From: Spirochaetales bacterium
GTDB lineage: Bacteria; Spirochaetota; Spirochaetia; UBA9216
DNA length: 64,000 nt
Assembly (NCBI GenBank): GCA_016342585.1
Contig: JAEINK010000017.1
Location: 1-64,000, forward strand
Reading direction: 5' to 3'
The notes below the pieces were generated by a model. It saw only the letters and a list, made by a program, of their open reading frames with translations, did not search any database and was not told where the DNA came from. Position numbers and translations under genes: made by a program. Shown here piece after piece: positions 21,979 through 40,354 of the stretch (positions are counted from its first letter, which is position 1; each line of letters opens with the position of its first letter).

Positions 21979-22854
21979 TCATTCTATTGAATTCTTATTC
22001 TTTTTCCTTAAAAACGAGGGAGGATGACCAAATTTGTTTTTATAGACTCTTGCAAAATAATTTCCATTGCAAAAGCCGGTTATCTCAGGGATGTTGGTAA
22101 TGGGTAAATCGGTTGATTTTAACAATTGGTTTGCCTGTTCCAATCTATAATCCGTCAGGAAATTTATAAAGGTACTACCTGTATACGCCTTAAAAACCCG
22201 GCAGAAATGCTGATCACTCATATGGGAATAATTCGACATTAGACTTATAGTTATTTTTTCATGGAAATGGACAAAAATATATTCAATAACATTCTTCATT
22301 TTTTCTACCGGTCTGTTTTCATCTTCTAATCCAACGGCCAACCTGTCTGGGAAATTTCGAATTAGCTCCGTGAAGAAACGACATAATTCAATTTTAATAA
22401 TTAGTTCGAAACCGGGTTTTCCTTCATTTTCTTCGTTTAAAATCGATTTAATTGGTTTGATAATACCTGAATATGAAGAGTCTGATCTGTTTATATGAAA
22501 AGACTTCTTAATCGATTCAGAAAAAAAAGGAGACAATATCTCATTGGAGTGTTTATCTGATCTTATATCGTCTAAAAATCTCTCTCCAATAACCAGAGCA
22601 TGATACTGAGCAGAGTCCTCTGTTACAATACTGTGCAGATGGCCGGAAGGAATAAAAAGAAGGTCCCCTTCACTGCAGGTATTTACAGAACCATTTATAT
22701 AAATTAAGGCGCGTCCTTCCTGTAAATAAATTATCTCACTGTGATTATGCCAATGGGGAGGAGTATCGAGATCCTTAATTCTGAAAATATTAAATTGAAA
22801 ATCTTCACTGCCAAGCTTAGTGTTCTCGTGATTTTCAATACTGATTAAATCCAT
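21979..22854 (-). CDS. AraC family regulator with cupin sensor
   Basis: 291 residues. Residues about 15-110 form a cupin-type sugar-binding domain (PPHWHNHSEIIYLQEGRALIYING, then GDLLFIPSGHLHSI). Residues about 185-285 are the double AraC helix-turn-helix (ISLMSNYSHMSDQHFCRVFKAYTGSTFINFLTDYRLEQANQLL and ITNIPEITGFCNGNYFARVYKNKFGHPPS). Cupin-AraC proteins normally switch sugar genes in response to a mono- or oligosaccharide. It is divergent from the GH31 glycosidase (gap 133 bases), which is the probable target. Confidence 0.92.
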   Translation of the reverse strand: MDLISIENHENTKLGSEDFQFNIFRIKDLDTPPHWHNHSEIIYLQEGRALIYINGSVNTCSEGDLLFIPSGHLHSIVTEDSAQYHALVIGERFLDDIRSDKHSNEILSPFFSESIKKSFHINRSDSSYSGIIKPIKSILNEENEGKPGFELIIKIELCRFFTELIRNFPDRLAVGLEDENRPVEKMKNVIEYIFVHFHEKITISLMSNYSHMSDQHFCRVFKAYTGSTFINFLTDYRLEQANQLLKSTDLPITNIPEITGFCNGNYFARVYKNKFGHPPSFLRKKNKNSIE

Positions 22855-22987
22855 AAAACCAAATCCTCATGCTCCAATAAAATATTCAGATTAGATACAT
22901 TATAGCGAATATAATACCTATTTATCCCGAAAATAGCAGCTTATAATATTAATATTGTTCAGATTTTTATGCAAAGGGAGTTTATTT

Positions 22988-25414
22988 ATGTTAACCGCAC
23001 GAAAAGGACCAAAAAAATCAATCAATACAATACATAGAACAGACAGAGCTCTGATACTCAATACGGAATCCGGAAATCTGAAGCTTGAACCATATTCGGA
23101 TGCTATTATACGAATCACTTATACACTGGCGGATTCATTTAAGGAGACTCAGTCTCCGGGAACTATAGACCACAACGAAAAATGTATATGGTCCTATAAA
23201 GAAGAAGAGTCAGAAATAATTCTAAATACTAAATCCATCCGTCTTGTCATAAATAAAACAACCTGTTCTTTCGCTTATTATGACAGCAATGGTAATCTGC
23301 TGACAAAGGAACCGGTAAAAGGCGGAAAAACACTTATCTCTTATAATGCCTATAGATCAGTACTCGATGAGAATAGTCTGGTTGAAAAAATTGAGACTCC
23401 TGACGGAATCAAAGAAATAATCATTGATTCAAAAAAAGAGTTTTACAAAAAATTAAACCATACTCGAATTGAATTCGAATGGGAAGATGGTGAAGCTCTT
23501 TTTGGAATGGGTCAGCAGGAGGAGGGAGTCCTGAATTTACGGGGCTCACGAAGGTATGTTCATCAGGCCAATATGAAAATAGCAATGCCATTTATTGTAT
23601 CCACAAGAGGATACGGAATTCTCCTCGATACATACTCCCCGATCATTTTTAATGACAACGAATATGGTTCATACATCTATAATGAATCGGCCGAGGAGTT
23701 GGACTTTTATTTTATACAGGGAGATTCATTTGACGCGATCATAGGTGGTTATCGATTCATCACAGGAAAAGCAAGTATGCTGCCGAAATGGGCCTTTGGT
23801 TATTTCCAGTCAATAGAACGATATGAATCCCAGCAGGAAATCATGGATACGGTAGAGGAGTACCGGAGGAGAGGTGTTCCTCTGGATTGCATAGTTCTCG
23901 ACTGGCAATACTGGGAAGAGGGCATGTGGGGGCAGAAATCATTTGACTCTTTACGTTTTCCTACACCGAAAAGGATGATAGAAACTCTGCATGAAAATGG
24001 TGTTAACTTTATGATCTCCATCTGGCCCAATATGTTCAATCAAACTGAAAACTACAAGGAAATGGTTGCTAACAACTGTTTATTTCAACACTCAGAGATA
24101 TACGATGCCTTTGATGATCAAGCCTGTTCTCTCTTCTGGAAACAGGTAAGTGAAGGATTGTTTATTAAAGGAGTTGATGCCTGGTGGTGCGACGCAAGTG
24201 AACCCTTCTCTCCGGAATGGAATTCCCCGATTAAGCCGGAACCGGATCAGAATTATCTAAACTTTCATAACACAGCTAAAAACTATATCAATGAGGAGTT
24301 CACCAATGCCTACTCACTTCGACATGCCAGGGCAATCTATGAAGGCCAAAGAGGTGAAACTGATGAAAAACGTGTGATTAATCTGACGAGAAGCGGTTAC
24401 ACGGGTCAGCAGAAATATGGAACAATTCTCTGGTCCGGTGATATAAGTGCCAACTGGAAAACCCTTGGAAATCAAATCCCTGAGGGATTGAATATGTGTA
24501 TGTCCGGGATGCCCTATTGGACCCTGGATATAGGCGGATTTTTTGTTAAAAAGGGAGATATGTGGTTCTGGGATGGGGATTATGAAGAGGGGTGTGAGGA
24601 TCTCGGGTATAGAGAACTGTATACAAGATGGCTGCAGCTGGGAACATTCCTTCCGATTTTTCGATCCCATGGAACAGACACAAGAAGAGAGATCTGGAAC
24701 TTCGGTAAAAAGGGAGAAACCTTTTATGATACGATCGTAAATTTCATTAACCTGCGATACAGACTCCTTCCCTACATTTATTCCATGGCAGGAATGGTTA
24801 CATTAAAAGACTATACAATAATGCGTCATCTCGCCTTTGATTTCATTGATGATCCCAGGGTATATGATATCAAGGATCAATATATGTTTGGGAATGCCTT
24901 AATGATCTGCCCTGTGACTGAACCGATGTATTACTCATCCGAATCACAACCACTCAAAGGGGTTTCAAAAACACGAAAAGTATACCTGCCCTTGGGCAGT
25001 GATTGGTTCGATTTCTGGACTAACGAAAAACTAATCGGTGGAAAATACATTTCAGCCCGGGCATCACTGGATATCATCCCGGTTTATGTGAAATGCGGCG
25101 CCATCATCCCCATGGCCGAGAAAGTCCTGCACACGGGGAGCAGTTCTGAAAGTGAAATAAAGCTTGTAATATATCCCGGAGCGAACGGTTCGTTCAAATT
25201 TTATTGTGATGAGAATAATAATTACAACTATGAACAGGGAGATTATTCGACTATTGATATCGAATGGAATGATGGTGATAAATATTTGACTATCGGTGAG
25301 AGACAAGGTTCGTACAAAGATATGAAGGAAGAAATCTCATTCACCATCGTACTCCTGAAGGAGGAACAATCCACCCTGAAGTACAATGGTAATAAGATGA
25401 TTTATAAATTATAG
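22988..25414 (+). CDS. GH31 family alpha-glycosidase (alpha-glucosidase or alpha-xylosidase)
   Basis: 808 residues without signal peptide, so cytoplasmic. A beta-sandwich N-domain (about 25-240) precedes the barrel. The nucleophile Asp lies in AWWCDASEP and the acid/base Asp in RSHGTDTRREIW; VLDWQYW and DIGGFF are further GH31 marks. The RSHGTD form is common in bacterial alpha-xylosidase and alpha-glucosidase branches, so the exact substrate is open. The start at 22988 is chosen because AAAGGGAG precedes it; the track's start lies 33 bases earlier without one. It faces a cupin-AraC regulator on one side and is convergent with a carbohydrate ABC operon on the other, so it probably digests the imported oligosaccharide. 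Confidence 0.92.
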   Translation: MLTARKGPKKSINTIHRTDRALILNTESGNLKLEPYSDAIIRITYTLADSFKETQSPGTIDHNEKCIWSYKEEESEIILNTKSIRLVINKTTCSFAYYDSNGNLLTKEPVKGGKTLISYNAYRSVLDENSLVEKIETPDGIKEIIIDSKKEFYKKLNHTRIEFEWEDGEALFGMGQQEEGVLNLRGSRRYVHQANMKIAMPFIVSTRGYGILLDTYSPIIFNDNEYGSYIYNESAEELDFYFIQGDSFDAIIGGYRFITGKASMLPKWAFGYFQSIERYESQQEIMDTVEEYRRRGVPLDCIVLDWQYWEEGMWGQKSFDSLRFPTPKRMIETLHENGVNFMISIWPNMFNQTENYKEMVANNCLFQHSEIYDAFDDQACSLFWKQVSEGLFIKGVDAWWCDASEPFSPEWNSPIKPEPDQNYLNFHNTAKNYINEEFTNAYSLRHARAIYEGQRGETDEKRVINLTRSGYTGQQKYGTILWSGDISANWKTLGNQIPEGLNMCMSGMPYWTLDIGGFFVKKGDMWFWDGDYEEGCEDLGYRELYTRWLQLGTFLPIFRSHGTDTRREIWNFGKKGETFYDTIVNFINLRYRLLPYIYSMAGMVTLKDYTIMRHLAFDFIDDPRVYDIKDQYMFGNALMICPVTEPMYYSSESQPLKGVSKTRKVYLPLGSDWFDFWTNEKLIGGKYISARASLDIIPVYVKCGAIIPMAEKVLHTGSSSESEIKLVIYPGANGSFKFYCDENNNYNYEQGDYSTIDIEWNDGDKYLTIGERQGSYKDMKEEISFTIVLLKEEQSTLKYNGNKMIYKL

Positions 25415-25421
25415 AGAGTGT

Positions 25422-26501
25422 CTATCTGTATTGCTCAACACTTTTCAATACAGATTCAACCTCATTCATATTTTGAAAGTTGATCATCAGATACATCCCC
25501 TCGGGTCCCACAGCATCCATCAAAGGTATGACTTCATCCGCTCTCATCTCTACGGCCTGAACGGATTTTCCTGCAGCTTTAATTTTCCTGTACATATCAT
25601 AATACCCCTGATCCCCCCCCTGGGGAACCTGAGGACCAGGAGTGTATTCAATGGCATCGAGGTTTTCGACTTCAAGAAGTGCATCCAGTTTATCCAGTGC
25701 TGTAGGACCATCAAGATGAAAAAGTGTGTGATCCATATGGTTACAATGTTCCCGCAGGACTGGAATTTCAAATTCCCTGAACATATCAGGGCTGATCATA
25801 GCACAGAAATCGCATTGTGCAAGGGAGACCCGCCCCGGCCCCCAGAGCATAAACCACCCATAAAGACTGCTTTCATCTTTTCCCTTAAGAAGCTGATAAA
25901 ATTGTTCATAGTACTCAAAGTAAGCCGTGTTTATTTCCTGAAGTTTCTCCTTAACCCACTCCGGATTCATAATGAGATCCAGAAGCAGATTCTGAGTTCC
26001 CCGGACTTCGGCCAGAACATCCAGGCCCGGGGGCAGAGCCGGAAATCCAACGGCATACCGGTCCAGGGAGCTGTTTTTCAGTTTCCGGCAGATATTCATC
26101 ATAGCCTTGAACCTATCATTCTCAAGATCAAATGTCAGTTTTCTGTCATTTTCCGGCGACAAATCCGTGGGGTGATATAGTATATATTCTTCTTCATAGC
26201 GCATTCCTACACCCATGAACGTCGATAAAGTGACGGTTCCGTAATCAGGAAAAACAAGGGGTAAAAAATCTCCCCCCTGATAATTGCAGGAGAGTCTGTA
26301 TTCTTCAGAACGGACAACCCAGTCTTCATCACTATGCCGCTGTTCATGAGAAACAGGTAATCCTGGATCTGCAATTCCGTACAGGCTTTTTCCGGTGTTA
26401 AACCCCGATCCCCAATGGCTGATAATAAAGCCTTCCCCCTTCCACCAGTCAAGAAAATGCTGCCGGGTTTCCGGCCAGTTCTGTTTCCAATTCAAGTTCA
26501 T
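25422..26501 (-). CDS. Uroporphyrinogen decarboxylase superfamily protein
   Basis: 359 residues with the barrel layout of the URO-D/methyltransferase (MtbA-like) superfamily: FGVG-like FMGVGMRY, GWFMLWGPGRVSLAQCDFCAMISPDMFREFEIPVLREHC and FHLDGPTALDKLDALLEVENLDAIEYTPGP. The heme-pathway enzyme is excluded: it lacks the RQAGR start, and it sits as the last gene of a sugar ABC operon, 5 bases after a permease stop. Such URO-D-like genes occur repeatedly in carbohydrate operons of anaerobes, where they may act on methylated or small organic groups. The exact reaction is unknown. Confidence 0.8.
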   Translation of the reverse strand: MNLNWKQNWPETRQHFLDWWKGEGFIISHWGSGFNTGKSLYGIADPGLPVSHEQRHSDEDWVVRSEEYRLSCNYQGGDFLPLVFPDYGTVTLSTFMGVGMRYEEEYILYHPTDLSPENDRKLTFDLENDRFKAMMNICRKLKNSSLDRYAVGFPALPPGLDVLAEVRGTQNLLLDLIMNPEWVKEKLQEINTAYFEYYEQFYQLLKGKDESSLYGWFMLWGPGRVSLAQCDFCAMISPDMFREFEIPVLREHCNHMDHTLFHLDGPTALDKLDALLEVENLDAIEYTPGPQVPQGGDQGYYDMYRKIKAAGKSVQAVEMRADEVIPLMDAVGPEGMYLMINFQNMNEVESVLKSVEQYR

Positions 26502-26505
26502 AGTA

Positions 26506-27345
26506 TTACCCTTTAACCGAGCCGGCAGTCGACTCCATGTGAATTTTATTTTGAAAAAAGAAATAGAGAACCAGTGGAATGATGGCGGAGAATAGAATCG
26601 CCGCCGTCAATGTTGGAATGGGAATTCCATGCTCTCCCTTCATTACGGCCAGTCCCAGGGAAAGGGGACGCATGACAGGTTTTTGGATCAAGAGAAGGGA
26701 AAAAGGAAGTTCCGTCCACATGGCCAGCGAGCCGACGATTCCTATTGTCCCTATCATAGGGGTAGCGATAGGCATAATAATTCTAAAAAGCTGCTGGAAA
26801 ACATTTGCTCCATCTATCCTCGCAGATTCAATCATGGATCGCGGAACAGTGGAATAATAAGTGGACATGATATACGTTCCAAAAGGAGCAAAGTAAGCCA
26901 CCCAGACAAGTATCAACCCTAAATATGAGTTCATAAGCCCTATTTTCGAACAGATCCTGTAGACTTGTGCCGCAATAACCATCTGAGGGAATATCTGAAA
27001 GAATAAGATAAACGAGAAGATGGCTATTTTAAAACGAAACCTGAGCATTCCCAGGGCAAATCCGGCTGCATTGCAGACAAAAATATAGAGTACCATTCCC
27101 AGGGAGACGGTCAAAACAGAATTAAACATATACTGTGCCATATTCAGATTTCGAAAAACATATGCATAGTTTGCCGTTGTCCAGTGAACAGGTAGTGCCG
27201 TTTTGCTGACTGTATATTCCGAAGGAATTTTGAAGCTCGAAATAAATGTGAAATATAATGGATAAAGACTGAAAAGTGTGACAAAAATCAGTAAAAAATA
27301 AACGGCCATTCTGGCGGGATTATATCTTTTTGCACGAATCATCAT
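26506..27345 (-). CDS. Carbohydrate ABC permease, MalG/UgpE type
   Basis: 279 residues with six membrane segments. The ATPase-contact loop is ESARIDGANVFQQLFRIIMPIATPM (about 180-205), the CUT1-family EAA motif. The N-terminal YPLYFTFISSFK is also typical of MalG-like proteins. It overlaps the end of the MalF-type gene by 4 bases. It forms one half of the inner-membrane channel. No ATPase gene is in the operon, so a shared MsmK/UgpC-like ATPase from elsewhere must power it. Confidence 0.93.
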   Translation of the reverse strand: MMIRAKRYNPARMAVYFLLIFVTLFSLYPLYFTFISSFKIPSEYTVSKTALPVHWTTANYAYVFRNLNMAQYMFNSVLTVSLGMVLYIFVCNAAGFALGMLRFRFKIAIFSFILFFQIFPQMVIAAQVYRICSKIGLMNSYLGLILVWVAYFAPFGTYIMSTYYSTVPRSMIESARIDGANVFQQLFRIIMPIATPMIGTIGIVGSLAMWTELPFSLLLIQKPVMRPLSLGLAVMKGEHGIPIPTLTAAILFSAIIPLVLYFFFQNKIHMESTAGSVKG

Positions 27346-28238
27346 TTTAACTGCTCCCCTTTTTTAAGAACATAAATCTGAAGGGCTGCAATAATAGAGC
27401 AGAAAACAAATAGGATTACCGCCCAGCTTGAAGCATACCCCATTTTAAAAGCTTGAAAACCTATCTTATATATCCCGAATTCCAGGGTATAAGTTGCAAA
27501 TCCCGGTCCTCCATAGGTCAGGGTATAAATAAAGCTATACATCCTTGCAAAAACCTCTATAAATGAAAGGACAAGAAAAAACTGGATGGAAAAGCTGATG
27601 CTGGGCACTGTGATTTTAAAAAACTTCTGCCACCAGCTGGCGCCATCAATTCCAGCCGCATCGTATAATCCGGAGTCGATACTGCTCATGGCGGCCAGAA
27701 AGTAAATGCATCCAAAACCCATTTTTGAAAATACAACAAAGAGTAAAGCGACAATATGGATAGCTGTATTGGAATGGCCGAGAATGTTAATGCTCCTGGC
27801 ATCTTCTACCCCTAAAAGCTCCAGCATTTCAATAAGAGGCCCGGATTGACTGAGAATAATACTGAATAAGGTTCCGAGTATGACGTACCCTAAAATGGTG
27901 GGAAGATAAATGACAGAACGGAAGAAGGTCCAACCCTTAAGGCCTTCCCTTAAAATAGCAGCAATCAGCAGAGGAACGAATGTTCCAACTGGAATATATA
28001 ATACAAGAACTCCCAGATTCTTTAATGAAGACCAGAATTTATCATCATTAAAAAGATGTTCATAGTTTTTGAAGCCCGCCCATACGGCAGTTCCAAACCC
28101 CTTCCAGCTTGTAAAACTGTAAAAAAAATTCGCCAATACCGGATATACAATAAAAACAAGCATGAGCAAAAGTAAAGGAAACAGTAGTATATAGGCATCT
28201 GATTGTTCCTGCTGTTTCATCATTTTTCGTGTGTACAT
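27342..28238 (-). CDS. Carbohydrate ABC permease, MalF/UgpA type
   Basis: 298 residues with six membrane segments. FPLLLLMLVFIVYPVLANFFYSF at the start and the EAA loop DAAGIDGASWWQKFFKITVPSIS (about 200-225) identify it as a CUT1 sugar permease. It pairs with the MalG-type protein encoded directly after it. It follows the solute-binding protein gene across a 63-base gap that contains a strong hairpin. Confidence 0.93.
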   Translation of the reverse strand: MYTRKMMKQQEQSDAYILLFPLLLLMLVFIVYPVLANFFYSFTSWKGFGTAVWAGFKNYEHLFNDDKFWSSLKNLGVLVLYIPVGTFVPLLIAAILREGLKGWTFFRSVIYLPTILGYVILGTLFSIILSQSGPLIEMLELLGVEDARSINILGHSNTAIHIVALLFVVFSKMGFGCIYFLAAMSSIDSGLYDAAGIDGASWWQKFFKITVPSISFSIQFFLVLSFIEVFARMYSFIYTLTYGGPGFATYTLEFGIYKIGFQAFKMGYASSWAVILFVFCSIIAALQIYVLKKGEQLK

Positions 28239-28258
28239 GTTCGGACATTCCTTGAAAA

Positions 28259-28283
28259 CGGCAGGAGCCCGGGGCTCCTGCCG
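28259..28283. terminator. Perfect 11-bp GC-rich hairpin between binding-protein and permease genes
   Basis: CGGCAGGAGCC and GGCTCCTGCCG pair perfectly around a 3-base loop. On the minus strand it is followed by only TTTTC, so it should be a leaky terminator or a 3' stabiliser of the binding-protein message. The position matches that of the hairpin in the 14.9-18.7 kb ABC operon. Confidence 0.65.
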
Positions 28284-28301
28284 TCATGGTTTTATCTTAG
28301 T

Positions 28302-29591
28302 TTAAAGATTCTGTTCGTATGCTTTCTGAAGTTTCTCTACATATTCAGTTAAAGAGATTTCATCGGCAACAAAGAAGAGCTGAAAGTAATTATAAAGTTC
28401 AGCAGCGAAACCGGCATCCAGTTGATTGTAGAAATCGGGAACCGCGTTGGTACTCATAAATCCAACGACTTCGGCTAAGGATTCATTATCAATAGGAAGA
28501 TTCTTATTGGGCACAATAGCTCCGGTTCTATTAAGAAACAGACTGGCTGATTCACCATGGACATACTCTTTGAGGTAGTCCACAGCAGTTTCCTTGTTTT
28601 CAGAGTTATTTAATACCGCAAAACCGATTCCGGCTCCCTGACTGCTCTGACGATCTGAATATGGTGCCGCGGAGGTATTGAGACTGGGTAGATAACCGAG
28701 ATTATCATAACCGAAGGCATCGCCGAAATCCTTCCAATGGGCTATATCGGAGGTAAGACCGAAAAAGAACCCGCCCTCACCGGATTTGAAGAGTTCAATA
28801 GCATCCATGAAATAGGGCATGGTAGCATTTTCAGTATTAACATATCCCTTGGTAAAAAGGGTCTTCAGCATTCGGGAGGCTTCAATAAAAGCATCGTCTG
28901 TGAAGTTTGCACTTCCATCACTGAACCCGTTCAATTTATCCCCATAGAAATTTGCAAGGAGAACACGGTAGGCAAAATCAACCCCAAAGGGCTGGCCGCC
29001 ATTCCCCATAACAATTGGAGAGATCCCGGCAGACTTCATTTTTTCACAGGCAGCCAGGAATGAATCCCAATCACCGAGGTTATCAAATGAACTGACGCCA
29101 GCTGTTTTCAGATTGGCTTTATTATAATAGATTCCGATACCCTGGGCGGTTAAAGGTACAATTTTAATATTACGGTCACTTTCATTGGTGGAAGATCCTG
29201 CTGCCCATGCAGAATCGGACATATCCTCTCTCCAGTCAGCAATATAGGTATCAAGTGGCAGGAGAAACTCTTCCATATTCCATATTCGCTGGTCCGTGTG
29301 TGCCATGATTACATCTGGTCCGATCCCGGAAGCCATGGCAGCCGCCAGTATTTCATAGTAGTTATCGTGAGGCTGGGCCACATGAACGATTTCCACATTC
29401 GGATTCGCAGACATATAGAGAGCATCCATATCCTTCAACGCCGATCCTACAACTTCTTCACTGTACTTAAAATCCCAGACAGTCAGTGTTACTTTTTCAT
29501 TCTTCTCTTCCTGATCTCCTCCAGCAAAGAGAGCCCCACAGCTGATAATGAGTATCAGAGTTATAAGGCCGATTGTTTTGTTTTTATGCAT
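28302..29591 (-). CDS. Carbohydrate ABC solute-binding lipoprotein
   Basis: About 429 residues. The start is set at the ATG at 29591 because GGAGG lies 8 bases before it; the track's upstream ATG contains that site. The signal ends IISCGALFAGG, with a plausible lipobox Cys, and a mature acidic start GGDQEEKNE. Family 1 marks follow: TLTVWDFKYSEEV, ASGIGPDVIMAH, QGIGIYYNKANL and MGNGGQPFG. It is the binding protein for the two permeases downstream. The gene before it on the same strand encodes a paralogue. Confidence 0.92.
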   Translation of the reverse strand: MHKNKTIGLITLILIISCGALFAGGDQEEKNEKVTLTVWDFKYSEEVVGSALKDMDALYMSANPNVEIVHVAQPHDNYYEILAAAMASGIGPDVIMAHTDQRIWNMEEFLLPLDTYIADWREDMSDSAWAAGSSTNESDRNIKIVPLTAQGIGIYYNKANLKTAGVSSFDNLGDWDSFLAACEKMKSAGISPIVMGNGGQPFGVDFAYRVLLANFYGDKLNGFSDGSANFTDDAFIEASRMLKTLFTKGYVNTENATMPYFMDAIELFKSGEGGFFFGLTSDIAHWKDFGDAFGYDNLGYLPSLNTSAAPYSDRQSSQGAGIGFAVLNNSENKETAVDYLKEYVHGESASLFLNRTGAIVPNKNLPIDNESLAEVVGFMSTNAVPDFYNQLDAGFAAELYNYFQLFFVADEISLTEYVEKLQKAYEQNL

Positions 29592-29728
29592 TTTCATTTC
29601 CTCCATATAAAATTAATTCATTGTCAGGCAGGATATGAGATGGGTATAGGTTCAAAATCGGGAAAGAGTTATAGATGTTGGAATACCATAGTGTTAAATG
29701 ATGCAATAAGTATCAAAAGCGGGAGATA

Positions 29729-31000
29729 TCAGTACAATTTCAGTTCATCCCGGAATTTTTTCAGGTATTCATTGATAGTAATTTCCCGGGAGTTTATCAG
29801 GAGATCATCCAATCGGTACTGGAGGTCTTTAATATAATTTGAGGGAACAGACATCTCAGGATCTGTACCGGTATTCTGTAAAGCATGATAGATCTGTTCA
29901 AGCAAAGGATAATCATCCACGGGAAGAACACTTTCTTCTAAAGGAATAAGCATGCCCAGGTCTTCAGTAAGAATCTCCTGACTCTCTCCAGAAAAAAGAT
30001 GATTCAAATACAAAGAGGCAGCCTCCTTGTTTTCAGAAGCTTTATTAATAGCAACAAGAACTCCTGCATCCTGAAGAAGCTGTGCACCCGGACGTTTCAT
30101 CCCGGGATGAATCAGATTGGGGAAATAGCCAACATTTTCCCGTCCAAGGGAATCTGTAAAATTTTTCCAGTGTGCTATATCGGAAAGTAACCCCAGGATC
30201 ATTGCACTCTTACCCTGGCTGAAGGAATCTGATGCATAATTGAAATAGGGTCTATACACACCAGATTCATCAAAATACCCCTTATCCCGCAATTCCCGGC
30301 CGAATGCCAGAATCATTCGAAACCTTTCTGTCCCCGGTCCCTGTCCCTGATCGTAAAATGACTCAATCTCCTCTTCTGTGAAAAAAGCCGTGATCAGGCT
30401 CCTTCGGAGAAATTCAGTTGTCATAGGTCGATTATTCCCCATCGCAATAGGGGTAATCCCTTGATTTTTAAGGGTCTTACAGGCGATTAGAAAATCATAC
30501 CAATCATCGGGTGGATTTTCCGGATCCAGCCCTACCGACCGAAAGAGTTCTTTATTGTAGTACCATCCGATCCCCTGAAAAGTCAGAGGAAGGGCTTTGA
30601 GAGCCCCGGTATCGTCACGGCAATAGTCAAGGGAAGCACTTCTGAACAATAAGCCACTATTATCAAGGAAATCATCAAGAGATTCCAGATACGGCTGGTT
30701 CTCAGCCAATTCGGGTCCCATATGAAGCCAGAGAATATCCGGCCCGGTCCCGGCGAGCAAAGCGGCTCGAAGAGCAGGTATATATTCCTGATCAAAAAAT
30801 CCTTTATGTATCAGGGTAATATCCGGATTGGATTTTCTGAACAGATTATCAATTCGATTTATGGCAATCTCGGTTCTGTGATCTGTATATTTAAAATCCC
30901 AGACCGTAAGGGATGATTCGGCCCCCAGCAGACCCATTCCAGTCAACATGAAAATAAGAGATATTAAAATTGACCTGAAGAACTTTATGGTGCAATTCAC
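29729..31000 (-). CDS. Second solute-binding protein of the same operon (paralogue)
   Basis: About 423 residues from the GTG at 31000. The track's longer version (to 31069) would overlap the divergent regulator gene and adds residues before the signal peptide. After the signal (FFRSILISLIFMLTGMGLLGA) comes SSLTVWDFKYTDHRTEIAINRID, closely parallel to the next gene's protein. LAGTGPDILWLH, QGIGWYYNKELF and AMGNNRPM also align. It keeps the ligand-binding fold, but only one permease pair follows, so it may serve another purpose, for example presenting ligand to the neighbouring membrane regulator. No lipobox is clear. Confidence 0.85.
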   Translation of the reverse strand: MNCTIKFFRSILISLIFMLTGMGLLGAESSLTVWDFKYTDHRTEIAINRIDNLFRKSNPDITLIHKGFFDQEYIPALRAALLAGTGPDILWLHMGPELAENQPYLESLDDFLDNSGLLFRSASLDYCRDDTGALKALPLTFQGIGWYYNKELFRSVGLDPENPPDDWYDFLIACKTLKNQGITPIAMGNNRPMTTEFLRRSLITAFFTEEEIESFYDQGQGPGTERFRMILAFGRELRDKGYFDESGVYRPYFNYASDSFSQGKSAMILGLLSDIAHWKNFTDSLGRENVGYFPNLIHPGMKRPGAQLLQDAGVLVAINKASENKEAASLYLNHLFSGESQEILTEDLGMLIPLEESVLPVDDYPLLEQIYHALQNTGTDPEMSVPSNYIKDLQYRLDDLLINSREITINEYLKKFRDELKLY

Positions 31001-31022
31001 TTCTACATGATAGACTGGTTTA

Positions 31023-32972
31023 ATGGTAAAAATCCACAGTTTTTTTGGAGCATTTCTTGTCACATTCATGATTCTCTGCCTCCTTATAGGTGTAATGGTT
31101 TTTTACAATATACAGTCAAATAATGTGCAGGAACTGGCATTGAAATCCATGACATTATTGTCCGACTGGAATAAGCTGGAAAACAGAACGAATCAGATTC
31201 TACTCAGCCGCTACACAGTAACAGATAAAACCATACATCCACTGATACAAACGTGGAAAGAGGAGTATGACAGCTTCTCTACCTCTCTTGAACAATTAAG
31301 TGAAGATAATCAGATTAACCACTGGCCCCATCTTATAGAGCAGATAAACGGTGCCACAAGAATATGGCGCTATACGAAAGTGCAGTTAAATAATGCCAAC
31401 AATTATTTTAATAAAATCATTCAAAGCGGACTTGGTGATAAGGTAATGGTGAACGGATTCATTCATACCATGTATAAACTGCGTATGGAAGGGCAATTAA
31501 CGGATACGGAGATCTTCCTGATAGATGACACCTTATACGCTCTGGAATCACTGGATAAGGCAACCCGGGAATTCGATTTAATCTTTAATGCTATAGTAGT
31601 GGACCTGAAGGATACGGGAAATGTTTATTTAAAACGGATCCGATTCATGATATTTGGGTTATTCTGTATGGCAATACTTGTACTTTGCCTTGCACTCCTG
31701 ATTAATAATCAGCTTAAAATAGCACAGGAAAATCGCTCACTTTATCTTAAACGTCAGAAAGGTCAACTTCTAAGGAGTCTCTGCGAAAATAGCTGCCTCG
31801 AGAATATGGAGCAATTCAACAGAAAAAAGATGGAGCTGGGAATACAATTATCACTCGATGATCCGATATTACCGATCATTCTGCAAATTGATAATTATTC
31901 CATATTTTCTCACAAACTGAACCTGAAAGAACAGAACAGTATAATCGAAGATCTGACCAGAACAGCAGAGAACTATTTAGCAGAAGAGGCTCTGAGTTGT
32001 GAATCATTCATCTATAGAGATGACATGATCATAATTCTCTCAAATACACAGGAGAGAGAGGAGATCGATGGTTTCCTCGAGCACATGCGAGTCCATCACA
32101 AAAATCTCATCCAAAACCAGGAATGGTCTGTTTCCATGACGATCGGGAGTATTAATAACGATGCCATAGATCTTGATAATGATTTTTCAGATCTCCTGGA
32201 ATTATCAGAATATAGATTTTTACAGGGAGAAGGAGCTTTTATTTTTCCGGGATCATCCCAGCTATCACTGAACCAAACCTTCCGGTACCCGAAGGAAAAA
32301 GAAAGGATATTAAAAGATTGCATAAATTCCCTGAAAATTAAACCATCCTTAAAAACCCTTGATGATATGATTGATTTTGGATCTGCCTACGGCCCGCGAA
32401 ACATGAGGAGATTATTTCTAAGACTAACCGCTTCACTGATATCCATAGTGGAAAACCTTGAACAGACATACCATATCCCCTCCATGACAGATGTGATCCC
32501 CATGATGCTGCAAGTACAGAATCCTGAAAACATCGACGGGGTAAAAGAGATCTTGAGAAAAATCATTAATCAAATTATAAATTCCTGTATCGAAACGAAA
32601 GAGGAGAAGCATGATCAGACTGTCTTAAAAATAAAAAATATAATTAAAAATGAAATGAACAATTTAAACCTTTCAGCAGAGACTATCGCTGATAAATTCG
32701 ACCTGACGGCATCCTATCTGAACAGACTATTTAAACAGCATAATTCCTATAGTATTGCCGGGTATATTAATATCATACGCCTGGAATTCAGTGAAGAACT
32801 TCTCAGGTGTACAGATAAGAATGTATCAGAAATTGCTGAATTATCGGGGTTTGCCAGTGCAGGAACTTTTTTCCGGCTGTTTAAAAAGAAATATGGTCGA
32901 ACGCCGAAGGATTATCAGCGAGAAATAAAACAGAGGGAAAGCAGTATACAGGATGAACCAGGTGGCTTTTAG
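31023..32972 (+). CDS. Membrane-anchored AraC-type regulator with extracytoplasmic sensor
   Basis: 649 residues. A membrane segment at about 8-28 leads into an extracytoplasmic helical sensor (about 30-205), then a second membrane segment (about 207-227). A cytoplasmic middle part (about 245-540) resembles the region between receiver and DNA-binding domain in YesN-like regulators. The last 100 residues are a double AraC helix-turn-helix (LSAETIADKFDLTASYLNRLF and VSEIAELSGFASAGTFFRLFKKKYGRTPKD). It thus senses outside the membrane and binds DNA directly. Its start codon is 22 bases from that of the divergent binding-protein gene and has no clear ribosome-binding site. It most likely controls the ABC operon at 25.4-31.0 kb. 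Confidence 0.88.
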   Translation: MVKIHSFFGAFLVTFMILCLLIGVMVFYNIQSNNVQELALKSMTLLSDWNKLENRTNQILLSRYTVTDKTIHPLIQTWKEEYDSFSTSLEQLSEDNQINHWPHLIEQINGATRIWRYTKVQLNNANNYFNKIIQSGLGDKVMVNGFIHTMYKLRMEGQLTDTEIFLIDDTLYALESLDKATREFDLIFNAIVVDLKDTGNVYLKRIRFMIFGLFCMAILVLCLALLINNQLKIAQENRSLYLKRQKGQLLRSLCENSCLENMEQFNRKKMELGIQLSLDDPILPIILQIDNYSIFSHKLNLKEQNSIIEDLTRTAENYLAEEALSCESFIYRDDMIIILSNTQEREEIDGFLEHMRVHHKNLIQNQEWSVSMTIGSINNDAIDLDNDFSDLLELSEYRFLQGEGAFIFPGSSQLSLNQTFRYPKEKERILKDCINSLKIKPSLKTLDDMIDFGSAYGPRNMRRLFLRLTASLISIVENLEQTYHIPSMTDVIPMMLQVQNPENIDGVKEILRKIINQIINSCIETKEEKHDQTVLKIKNIIKNEMNNLNLSAETIADKFDLTASYLNRLFKQHNSYSIAGYINIIRLEFSEELLRCTDKNVSEIAELSGFASAGTFFRLFKKKYGRTPKDYQREIKQRESSIQDEPGGF

Positions 32973-35806: not shown

Positions 35807-38800
35807 ATGTTAGATTCTTCAACCAATGATTTATACTATGCCGGTTTTGACATCGGTTCAGATACGGTTCATACAGTTGTCGTTGATAGAAACGGACAAC
35901 TCGTGTATACACCTGAGTCACTAATGCACTTCGGCAATCCTTTAGATGCACTGAAGGAAGCTTATACCAGCCTTCACAACAACCTGGATCATAAAAAAAT
36001 CGCCGCTTACTCTTTTACAGGTTCCGCGGGAAAATTAATCGCCGAGGTTACAGACAATCCGTTTTATTATGACACTATTTCGATATCCCAGGGGGCAGAG
36101 GTAATTGCACCTGAATCGGAATATATTATCCATCTGGGTTCCAAGGACCCCTACTTTTTTGAAAGGGAAACCGATAAGGTAATCACAGGAAAATCATACA
36201 TTTCGGATCATGGGACCGGGACAAAATGCGGCGGTGGCAGCGGCATCCTCATAAACAAACAGGTCCGCCGTTTTTTCGCCGAAGAGTTTCCCGTTATACT
36301 GGATGACCCCGGAAGAGGAGTCAATGAGGAGGAGTCTTTCGGGATTAGGATCAATAACCGCAGAAAGCTTCAAACACAGGTTGAAAATATCCATCAAAAG
36401 GCGAAAGAGACTATCCAGGCATCAGACAAGGAGCTGGATGTCGGTGGCAGGTGCGGTGTTATCATCCAGTCGGATATGATCCATATGCAGAACTCGGGAG
36501 AACAGATTCAGAATATCCTGAAAGGAATGTACACCCGCATCGCCAGAAATTTTAAAAGTGATGTTCTGGGAACAAGAACCATAGATCCACAGAGGAGTGC
36601 CATCGTATCCGGCGGGGCTTTCCTGAATGACTACCTGGTAGATCTCTTCAGCAGGGAACTCGGTCTGAAATTGCAGAGGCCGGCTCAACATGAAAAAATT
36701 GGAGCCGCCGGTGCCGCCCTGAAAGCCATGCGGGAAAACCGGAGATCGGTGTTCAGCACGGATAATCTTAATGCGGTTATTGACGCCCAGAAAAAGGAGA
36801 TCAAATTCGCTCCGCCCCTCTCTTCAGTTCTCCACATGGTAAAGGATTATGAGGAAGAGACGGCTGTATTCAAATCGGCAGGAGGTCTGGTTGTCTTCCG
36901 AAAACCGGAAAAGGTTGAACACGTAATCCTCGGAATAGACGGCGGATCGACAACGACTAAAGCCCTTATAGCCCATGCAGATACACTCGAAATTATTGCG
37001 GAGATCTGTCTGGATACGGATGGGAAACCTCTGGAAACCGCTCAAAAGGTTTTTGGTGAAATACGAGAGCACCTGGGGGAAAAGCTCTCCATCGATGGGA
37101 TCGCCTATACTGGCTCCTCCGGTCAATTCTATCACCGGCTTTTTACAGACTTCAACATTCCTGATACCGGAAAGGGGGCCGATTTTGTAAAGGATGAAAT
37201 TACCTGTCACGCCAATGGCGTAAAACATTTTAATTCAGATGTTGATACCATCTTCGAGTGTGGTGGGCAGGATGCAAAATTCACCGTTTTTAATCCGGAT
37301 GGCACTGTAAAAAAATCAAAAATGAATCTTTCCTGTATGGCCGGGACGGGGCAATCCATGAAAAACATGCTCGATATGCTCGGTTTTGATTTCAAGACAT
37401 TCAGAGACTACGCCCTGGCGGCCAAACGAACACCCGTAACCGATGAGATGTGTGCCATTTTCACCGAAGCCGGTGTCCTCAAGCTCCTGGCCCTGAACTT
37501 TCCCAGAGAAGAGATCGCAGCGGCCATCGCCCATGGTTTCATGGGAGGGTATGCCAACAAATTCGTAGGAAGTGAAACCTTTGGGAAATTCGCCTCCGCC
37601 CAGGGAGGACCATTTAAAGGCCTGGACTGCCTGGCAGCGCTTGCCCTTCACACAGGGATGGAAATCCATGCCTTCCCCCACCGGCAGCTTTTTGGTGCCA
37701 TGGGAGCGGCAATCGTAGCCTTCAACGAACTCCAAAAAATGGAGAAAGCGGGCGAATCCCCGGTCTGCCGGTTCAGAGGTCTGGGTATAGCAGATATTAA
37801 ATTCGAAAAGAGAGTCCAGAACTGTTCGACGCTGATAGAAGATTCCTGCGGAACAAGAGATTGCAAACTCCAGGTTTACAGGATGGGTGATGATGAAATA
37901 TTTTCCGGCGGACTCTGTCCCAAGGGGAACACCGAATCTTCAGCTACCAGATCCCCTGACTATGTAGGATTATACAAAGGCCTGCTGAATAAGGAGTTAA
38001 AGAAGTATTCAATTACTCCTGAAGAGGTTCAGGATAGTGACGCTCCCAGAATCCTCATCCCCCGGACTCTCCACTTCCTGAACCAGCGAGCCGTATTTTT
38101 TACCTCCCTCTATAGCGCACTGGGATTCAAGGTTGTTGTCTCCCCTGAATCCAATGATGAAATTGCCAACCTGGGACTGTCCCACTCCCATTCAGAGGCC
38201 TGTTTTCCCTCCAAGCTTCACCATGGTCATGTGGCCTATCTTAAAAATTATCTCCGTCCCGGAACTGATAAAATGTTTCTGGTGAACTTCCTGGGGCAGG
38301 GAGAAGAGACAGCACCTCAGAATCAATCCAAAACATGTCCCTTTGTTTCAGGAGCGGGGTTTGCCGCGAAAGAGGCGGTTAAACTTGAAACCGAGGATGT
38401 CCTCCAGCCTCTCCTGATGTTTGAGGATGATGTCTATCGCATCGAGGATGATATCTGGGATGATTTCAAGAGGGCCTTTAAAGGCTCCGAATACCTTGAG
38501 AAAATCAACCGGAAAAAAGTGGACAAGGCTATCCACAGAGCTCTTAAAAATCAGAAAGATTTTAACAGAAGGATCTATTCACAGGGTGCCGAAATCCTGA
38601 ACAGGCTTAAGAAGAAGGGAGAGAAGATCTTTATCGGTATAGGAAGAGGTTACACCCTCTTCGATGACAAGGCGAACTCAAAGGTTCATGAACTTTTCGT
38701 CGCCAATGGTCTCCACTTCATCCCCGCTTTTTTCATAGAACAGCCGGACATTGATTTTGACGAGATTGTTCACCATATGTACTGGTTTCAGGGAAGAGAA

Positions 38801-40354
38801 ATGACAAGGTATAACCTGATGGTAGCCCTGGATCCTCAGCTCTATGGAATCCGCGAGACAAACTTTAACTGTGGTCCTGATGCCATGCTCAGCTACCATG
38901 AAACGGAGATTTTTAACAAAGCTCAGAAACCCTACCTGAATCTTCAAACCGATGGTCATAACAGTAATGCCCAGTTCGGGACCCGGACCATGGCCAACTA
39001 TGAAGTCGTGAAAAACCACAAGCCGATTCCTGTCACCCTGGAGGATCTTAAAACCACCCATCCGAAGGGATTGGACATCCGCGACAGGCTCATGGGGATT
39101 CCCAATATGGGACTCGAAAGTTCCGAAACAGCCGCAGCCGTGTTCCGCTCAGCCGGAATGCCCAGCGAGGTAATGCCCTCCAAAACCGAGGAGTCGGAGT
39201 ACTATTCAAGAAAATATCTGATCACCAATAACTGTCTGCCCATGCACATCCTCTTTGGTGATGCCATGGCCTGGGTCTACCAGAAACAGAAGGAGGGTTA
39301 CGATCCCAACAAAGATCTTGCCCTTCTCATCCCCATGGCGGGAGGCCCCTGCCGGCTTGGTCAGTATCATATTATAACGAGATATTTTCTGGACCAATGC
39401 GGATTCGACAGGGTTCCCATAATAAACCCGGCGGCCTATCTGGACTGGGAGAACATCCCCGTCCCCAAGAAAAACAGAAGCATTATAAGGAGCGGACTTG
39501 CTAAATCCCAGATGTTCAGTGATGTCATCTATAACGCCAGATTACGGACACGCCCATACGAAATAAACAAGGGTGAAACGGATCGGGTTATCGATGGAAT
39601 TCATAAAGAGCTCATCGATGTAATCGAAAGGGGTAGTAATTTTAAAGAGATGGTTCGTCTTATGGAGAAGGCAGCCGGGGAGGTAAAAAAAATCCCTGTT
39701 ATTGATGACCGGTTTCCCAAGGTAGGGATGTTCGGAGAAATCTATGTTCGGAGCCATACGGGTTCAAACGAAGAATCCATCAGGAAACTTGAAGAGCAGA
39801 AACTGGAAGTGGCCCCCCGGCTTATTGCAGACATGATGGAGTATAACAATAAAATGCAATGTGCCGCCTTCTGGAAAGAGAAAAGGTATTCCAACTGGTT
39901 TGTCTCAAAAATTAAGGGGCTCTACATGCATGTTGTGGAGACGAAATTCCTTAAGCCTTTTGCAGAGTATCTGGATGATAGAAAACAGATGCGCCCCATA
40001 GAGATCTATGACTATCTTCGTGAAAATAATATATTCGATATAAGGATTAAGGGAGAAGCAGGGATTTCCATAGGCACATCCTACATGTTCATGACCACTA
40101 ACCCGGAGGATCTCCACGGAGTTTACCACCTTGAACCTTTCAGCTGCATGCAGGAGTGTGTCGCCACAAGCAAGATTCAATCCCTCATCGACAAACAACG
40201 CATGAAGGAGATCGATATCTCTAAAAAAGTAATCCCTTACCTTGTGGGTGTCTTTGGGGATTCCGAACTTCCCAACATCGAAGCGGAAATGGCCATGTTT
40301 GCAGAGAAATGTTATGCAAGAAGAGATCTTATTGATTCAAGGAGTGCTCAATGA
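35807..40354 (+). CDS. Fused 2-hydroxyacyl-CoA dehydratase activator/component protein (BcrA/BadF ATPases + DUF2229 + HgdB-like)
   Basis: 1515 residues. Two ASKHA ATPase domains of the BcrA/BadF/HgdC type lie in tandem: about 5-310 (YAGFDIGSDTVHTVVV, TKCGGGSG, GGRCG) and about 375-640 (LGIDGGSTTTKALI). The cluster-binding cysteines are SCMAGTG and EMCAIFTEAG. A DUF2229 region (about 690-900) follows, with GGLCPKGN and a Cys-rich start. The last 600 residues resemble dehydratase-subunit (HgdB) folds. Activators of this family use ATP to push one electron through a [4Fe-4S] cluster into a dehydratase or reductase. This giant fused form occurs in anaerobes and its real substrate is unknown. No separate dehydratase subunits are next to it. 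Confidence 0.85.
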   Translation: MLDSSTNDLYYAGFDIGSDTVHTVVVDRNGQLVYTPESLMHFGNPLDALKEAYTSLHNNLDHKKIAAYSFTGSAGKLIAEVTDNPFYYDTISISQGAEVIAPESEYIIHLGSKDPYFFERETDKVITGKSYISDHGTGTKCGGGSGILINKQVRRFFAEEFPVILDDPGRGVNEEESFGIRINNRRKLQTQVENIHQKAKETIQASDKELDVGGRCGVIIQSDMIHMQNSGEQIQNILKGMYTRIARNFKSDVLGTRTIDPQRSAIVSGGAFLNDYLVDLFSRELGLKLQRPAQHEKIGAAGAALKAMRENRRSVFSTDNLNAVIDAQKKEIKFAPPLSSVLHMVKDYEEETAVFKSAGGLVVFRKPEKVEHVILGIDGGSTTTKALIAHADTLEIIAEICLDTDGKPLETAQKVFGEIREHLGEKLSIDGIAYTGSSGQFYHRLFTDFNIPDTGKGADFVKDEITCHANGVKHFNSDVDTIFECGGQDAKFTVFNPDGTVKKSKMNLSCMAGTGQSMKNMLDMLGFDFKTFRDYALAAKRTPVTDEMCAIFTEAGVLKLLALNFPREEIAAAIAHGFMGGYANKFVGSETFGKFASAQGGPFKGLDCLAALALHTGMEIHAFPHRQLFGAMGAAIVAFNELQKMEKAGESPVCRFRGLGIADIKFEKRVQNCSTLIEDSCGTRDCKLQVYRMGDDEIFSGGLCPKGNTESSATRSPDYVGLYKGLLNKELKKYSITPEEVQDSDAPRILIPRTLHFLNQRAVFFTSLYSALGFKVVVSPESNDEIANLGLSHSHSEACFPSKLHHGHVAYLKNYLRPGTDKMFLVNFLGQGEETAPQNQSKTCPFVSGAGFAAKEAVKLETEDVLQPLLMFEDDVYRIEDDIWDDFKRAFKGSEYLEKINRKKVDKAIHRALKNQKDFNRRIYSQGAEILNRLKKKGEKIFIGIGRGYTLFDDKANSKVHELFVANGLHFIPAFFIEQPDIDFDEIVHHMYWFQGREMTRYNLMVALDPQLYGIRETNFNCGPDAMLSYHETEIFNKAQKPYLNLQTDGHNSNAQFGTRTMANYEVVKNHKPIPVTLEDLKTTHPKGLDIRDRLMGIPNMGLESSETAAAVFRSAGMPSEVMPSKTEESEYYSRKYLITNNCLPMHILFGDAMAWVYQKQKEGYDPNKDLALLIPMAGGPCRLGQYHIITRYFLDQCGFDRVPIINPAAYLDWENIPVPKKNRSIIRSGLAKSQMFSDVIYNARLRTRPYEINKGETDRVIDGIHKELIDVIERGSNFKEMVRLMEKAAGEVKKIPVIDDRFPKVGMFGEIYVRSHTGSNEESIRKLEEQKLEVAPRLIADMMEYNNKMQCAAFWKEKRYSNWFVSKIKGLYMHVVETKFLKPFAEYLDDRKQMRPIEIYDYLRENNIFDIRIKGEAGISIGTSYMFMTTNPEDLHGVYHLEPFSCMQECVATSKIQSLIDKQRMKEIDISKKVIPYLVGVFGDSELPNIEAEMAMFAEKCYARRDLIDSRSAQ

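Follow-up and report, generated by a model that had tools for sequence, protein, structure and literature searches.

Why should a sugar transporter locus with one permease pair encode two binding proteins, the second of which starts almost back to back with a membrane-bound AraC regulator? This arrangement was analysed in a window of 64 kb (positions 1–64,000 of contig JAEINK010000017.1), which belongs to a genome of 5.0 Mb whose nearest relatives by regulator gene are spirochaetes. Loci and genes were located by open reading frame (ORF) calls and Pfam searches. The regulator (REG) on the plus strand is divergent from the regulator-side solute-binding protein (SBP2), which is followed by the transport binding protein (SBP1), two permeases, and a URO-D-like protein, all on the minus strand:

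31023–32972, plus strand: REG, membrane AraC-family regulator of 649 amino acids (ORF; HTH_18; two transmembrane (TM) segments; orthologues in six further genomes)
29729–31000, minus strand: SBP2, regulator-side binding protein, signal peptide without lipobox (SBP_bac_1; presumed GTG start)
28302–29606, minus strand: SBP1, transport binding protein (SBP_bac_1; groups with SBPs of LacI-associated operons)
27342–28238, minus strand: ABC permease of the UgpA/MalF type (BPD_transp_1; UgpA model at 95.6 bits, under its cut-off)
26506–27345, minus strand: ABC permease of the UgpE/MalG type (BPD_transp_1; GlcU and MalG models under their cut-offs)
25422–26501, minus strand: URO-D-like protein (sub-threshold Pfam match; conserved neighbour in these operons)

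Quite probably, SBP2 is a periplasmic subunit dedicated to sensing for REG, which as a membrane AraC regulator would need no kinase. This is based on its one-to-one pairing with REG, the replacement of the pair by LacI in related operons, the pairing of the regulator family with two SBP folds, matched divergence, the homology of the regulator ectodomain, and a conserved repeat array, and on the existence of both halves of such a mechanism in CuaDSR (PMC10384115) and ChiS-CBP (PMC11856585). In brief, SBP2 would bind an external sugar and, once loaded, dock onto the helical-bundle ectodomain of REG; a conformational change would then pass through the two TM helices of REG, and its cytoplasmic AraC domain would bind four direct-repeat half-sites in the SBP2–SBP1 spacer. 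REG would control SBP1 and the permeases with no kinase or receiver in the path, and transport would be done by SBP1. We infer the contact between SBP2 and REG, the ligand, the sign of the response, and the binding of the array by REG.

Conservation and divergence of the SBP2–REG pair

Orthologues of REG and of SBP2 were sought separately in 395 genomes of the class. This search replaced an earlier profile search of a phylum sample (six regulators), which had returned almost no matches because even sampling had omitted the genomes carrying orthologues. Full-length REG orthologues (39–51% identical) were found in six genomes (G005, G004, G035, G446 (on the same contig as locus L036), G457, and G440), and SBP2 orthologues (47–63% identical) in exactly these genomes. 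Including the window, the two genes were divergent neighbours in 7/7 genomes from three families of the sample, with SBP2 split across two contigs in G004. Several genomes of the same genera had neither gene, and the next-best SBP matches (≤ 39%) fitted SBP1 better than SBP2. Conservation of the pair across spirochaetes had been set beforehand as a check on the sequence-only reading, according to which SBP2 reports the loaded sugar to REG; the orthologues co-occurred exactly, and no SBP2 without REG was detected among the 395 genomes. The adjacency, being kept in all seven genomes, is more than chance.

The transport operon, in turn, was also found without this regulator. In six operons (L140–L145), the permease pair is of the same kind and the only SBP is SBP1-like, and each has a LacI-family gene; a GH31 enzyme was present in five and a URO-D-like protein in three of them. 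The sequence-only claim of two homologous binding proteins with a single permease pair in the window was confirmed by Pfam (two SBP_bac_1, two BPD_transp_1), and SBP1 and SBP2 are 31% identical. In the SBP tree, SBP2 forms a single clade (100/100) on a long stem, separate from SBP1, which is nested among the SBPs from LacI-associated operons. Across both SBP types 35 residues are invariant, which suggests related ligands for SBP2 and SBP1; the SBP2 model is similar to binding proteins for oligosaccharides, among them chitin- and xylo-oligosaccharides, and related operons encode GH31 enzymes.

More distant full-length REG relatives (L032, L033, L097, and L042, which is one locus with L098) adjoin a Peripla_BP_4 SBP, which has a different fold, as well as a ribose-type ABC operon with its own transport SBP. 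Here, too, regulator-side and transport SBPs fall into separate clades (100/100). Near-branch divergence was calculated from the genomes common to all five alignments and, because these are few, is given as descriptive values with no significance claimed: the means were 0.46 for SBP2, 0.50 for the REG ectodomain, 0.56 for the cytoplasmic part of REG, 0.26 for SBP1, and 0.21 for the permease. Distances of SBP2 correlated with those of the regulator at 0.91 and 0.94, and with those of SBP1 at 0.69. In the far branch (three closer members), divergence was 0.41–0.49 for the putative sensing SBP, 0.18–0.20 for the transport SBP, and 0.47–0.54 for the regulator. In both branches, the regulator-side SBP thus diverges about twice as much as the transport SBP and near the regulator's pace.

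These data bear on the alternative that SBP2 is a second transport SBP for the same permease pair (for another sugar or with another affinity) and REG merely its ordinary controller. Although SBP2 is an SBP_bac_1 protein encoded beside the transporter and shares the 35 invariant residues, it was never found without REG, whereas the transport operon was; it diverges with REG and not with the permease; it varies at 24 residues that are fixed in every SBP1 and every LacI-type transport SBP; and the far branch repeats the pattern with an unrelated SBP. This alternative is hence considered unlikely.

One argument for SBP2 as sensing partner, the absence of a lipobox, was dropped. SBP2 indeed has none, but this does not distinguish it from SBP1, as the SBP1 orthologues lack one likewise (their signal peptides end in A-G-G or A-A-G) and the Cys of the window SBP1 is not conserved. 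The first ATG of SBP2 (31069) would place its start within REG, while GTG at 31000 yields a normal signal peptide and a gap of 22 bp to REG; from this we infer GTG 31000 as the start. It is supported by the orthologous loci, in which the two starts (taken from ORF calls) are similarly close, i.e., 15–46 bp apart or slightly overlapping. Given this start, the 22-base distance reported earlier is exact.

The regulator and its sensor domain

REG consists of the following parts:

31044–31106, plus strand: TM helix 1, about residues 8–28 (hydropathy)
31107–31640, plus strand: extracytoplasmic helical sensor domain, about residues 29–206 (AlphaFold2 model; profile homology)
31644–31706, plus strand: TM helix 2, about residues 208–228 (hydropathy)
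32685–32921, plus strand: HTH_18 AraC-type DNA-binding domain, residues 555–633 (Pfam; E-value 3e-18, 66.3 bits against a cut-off of 33.6)

The ectodomain of about 180 amino acids has four main helices in the AlphaFold2 model (pLDDT 87). Together with the two hydrophobic segments and the C-terminal HTH_18, this bears out the extracytoplasmic sensor and cytoplasmic AraC domain previously proposed. REG has the layout of a membrane one-component regulator, i.e., sensor, TM segments, and DNA-binding domain on one chain without kinase or receiver, and no histidine kinase or response regulator was found in REG or among the genes of the operon (ORFs, Pfam, and neighbourhood comparison). Only HTH families were detected in REG by Pfam, and the ectodomain was without a Pfam match. 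The middle region was considered as a YesN-type or GGDEF-like domain, which was rejected (no Pfam match; 7% in hhalign to the middle of two response regulators).

Ectodomain profiles were compared after removal of TM parts, with reversed alignments as control (< 2%). Near- and distant-branch regulator ectodomains were linked at 98%; links to chemoreceptor ectodomains reached 99% for the near and 97% for the far branch, and links to the ectodomains of two histidine kinases 95% and 97%, respectively. The profile links indicate one domain on three outputs (AraC, chemoreceptor, and kinase), two of which have adjoining SBP genes, as both kinases are encoded beside a YesN-type response regulator and two TctC-type SBPs. 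The kinases (L107:7779–12949 and L108:3109–8331, the latter locus also with TctA) are possibly a kinase-based version of the same sensing. The spirochaete chemoreceptors with this unnamed helical ectodomain, for which no Pfam family was found, are L099–L105, some of them in tandem; L106 encodes a shorter protein with the same ectodomain, in which no MCP signalling domain was matched.

The chemoreceptor homology could also be taken to mean that REG detects a small ligand with its own helical bundle, in the way that Tar detects aspartate, and that SBP2 is linked by ancestry or plays a minor part. Some helical-bundle sensors do bind ligands directly, and both the aspartate receptor and the Vc1313 LBD are among the weak, non-significant Foldseek matches of the ectodomain. 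Direct sensing would, however, leave both the two unrelated SBP folds beside one regulator family and the matched divergence of SBP2 and REG unexplained, and is thought very unlikely. With SBP2 as the sensing subunit, a broader proposal can be made, in which we have about even confidence: membrane AraC regulators of one family, acting without kinases, would use dedicated SBPs as exchangeable sensor subunits, and one SBP-reading module would serve transcription, phosphorelay, and perhaps chemotaxis. It is based on the pairing of this receptor line with two unrelated SBP folds and on the ectodomain being common to chemoreceptors and SBP-adjacent kinases.

Candidate operator and promoter elements

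Candidate elements were recorded in the spacers on either side of SBP2:

29649–29716, minus strand: operator-like array of four TTGANAC half-sites at offsets 0/19/42/61 (leave-one-out scan; conserved in the SBP2–SBP1 spacer)
29716–29710, 29697–29691, 29674–29668, and 29655–29649, minus strand: the TTGANAC-like half-sites of this array
31007–31016, no strand assigned: ATGATARACT block between the starts of SBP2 and REG (conserved in 7/7 loci, one of which differs at one position)

The array scan used a model built without the sequence tested (L036 and L094 were excluded jointly). Five spacers had the array in one and the same position, and in each of them 0/1000 shuffles scored as well; in the 64-kb window it scored 29.9 and the runner-up site 6.6. 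As AraC proteins commonly bind direct repeats, the array is likely the operator of REG, a prediction that would place the transport operon under its control. Since this likely operator is located between SBP2 and SBP1, SBP2 probably stands outside the regulated transporter operon, and the former assignment of SBP2 to one operon with the transporter probably does not hold. No clear equivalent of the array was seen by eye in the alignment of the distant branch. The ATGATARACT block is a possible −10 element, for either strand or both genes; it remains a candidate, because a sigma-70 consensus scan called no promoter at the divergent SBP2/REG start.

Several points weigh against SBP2 as the sensing subunit of REG. 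Its rapid divergence could also be explained by relaxed constraint, and the near branch is represented by seven genomes and the far branch by four, all of them spirochaetes as far as named and many of them metagenome-assembled genomes. The half-site consensus was first spotted by eye and scanned afterwards, and the sixth spacer (L096) gave a weaker array match, though again with 0/1000 shuffles as good. A Foldseek search of the ectodomain against the PDB gave nothing significant (best E-value 0.03, generic helical bundles only).

Known systems and neighbouring genes

CuaDSR, XylFII-LytS, and the Geobacillus AraPST type are three-component systems of SBP, kinase, and regulator. CuaDSR of Ruminiclostridium cellulolyticum has, like the window locus, two SBPs; in CuaDSR one of them transports and the other senses, and the sensing SBP gene adjoins the sensor gene (PMC10384115). 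Two SBP clades (100/100) and a conserved operon order are seen here, and sensing by SBP2 would make the division of roles the same. The sensing operon of CuaDSR is constitutive and its transport operon induced (PMC10384115); the proposed likeness is a transport operon as the regulatory target. In contrast to CuaDSR, REG carries sensor and DNA-binding domain on one chain, with no kinase or response regulator.

In Vibrio cholerae, the chitin-binding protein CBP activates ChiS, a regulator that is embedded in the membrane and itself binds DNA (PMC11856585); CBP is a single SBP for transport and signalling (PMC10384115). A sugar SBP acting with a membrane regulator that binds DNA is also what we propose here from sequence comparison, but REG has an AraC output and SBP2 is distinct from the transport SBP. 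By origin, ChiS belongs to the hybrid kinases. In the co-component systems VtrA/VtrC and ToxR/ToxS, a membrane transcription factor acts with a periplasmic sensor encoded by the adjacent gene, both fast-evolving (PMC9214523). Likewise, SBP2 adjoins REG in all seven genomes, and both are fast-evolving (0.46 and 0.50–0.56, against 0.21 for the permease); VtrC is lipocalin-like and the output of those systems is a ToxR-type wHTH, whereas SBP2 has the fold of an SBP and REG an AraC output.

AraC domains on membrane-bound chains are present in the YesS type and in TfoS. Transmembrane AraC regulators were also found in Paenibacillus loci (L041–L051), often upstream of permease genes; the ectodomains of these Firmicutes proteins are larger, and wherever both TM segments could be detected, about 295 residues lay between them. 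No account of a membrane AraC regulator paired with a dedicated SBP came up in the literature searches, but these covered open-access texts only, so this absence is weak evidence. The locus is best read as a conserved module of SBP and membrane AraC regulator for sensing without a kinase, each half of which is known from CuaDSR (PMC10384115), ChiS-CBP (PMC11856585), and VtrA/VtrC (PMC9214523).

Described systems also bear on the sign of regulation. Unloaded SBP2 might restrain or titrate REG until sugar binding releases it; the genomic evidence does not give the sign, and SBP-sensor complexes of both kinds, dissociating and assembling, have been described, but activation of the sensor by the loaded SBP is the usual case in those systems (PMC10384115). 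Nothing speaks directly against this variant, which is rather improbable and is already counted within the confidence given to SBP2 as sensing subunit; activation of REG by loaded SBP2 is more likely. If true, the proposed circuit would be the shortest from an SBP to a gene, leading from the sugar through the binding protein and a membrane transcription factor to the promoter, with sensing split from transport in natural paralogues and a testable operator. An exchange of SBP partners within one receptor line would be a natural experiment on SBP-receptor docking, and the module a possible modular sugar biosensor.

URO-D-like proteins are kept in these sugar operons, one or two in each (window 25422–26501; L036:1182–3390); a second such protein, in the L036 operon, exceeded the cut-off of the URO-D Pfam model, and the window copy was below it. 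At 21979–25414 of the window, a GH31 enzyme adjoins a cupin-type AraC gene, convergent with the operon and different from the GH31 enzymes within orthologous operons. A protein of 1515 amino acids at 35807–40354 resembles, judged on its sequence alone, a CoA-dehydratase activase (BadF/BcrA type).
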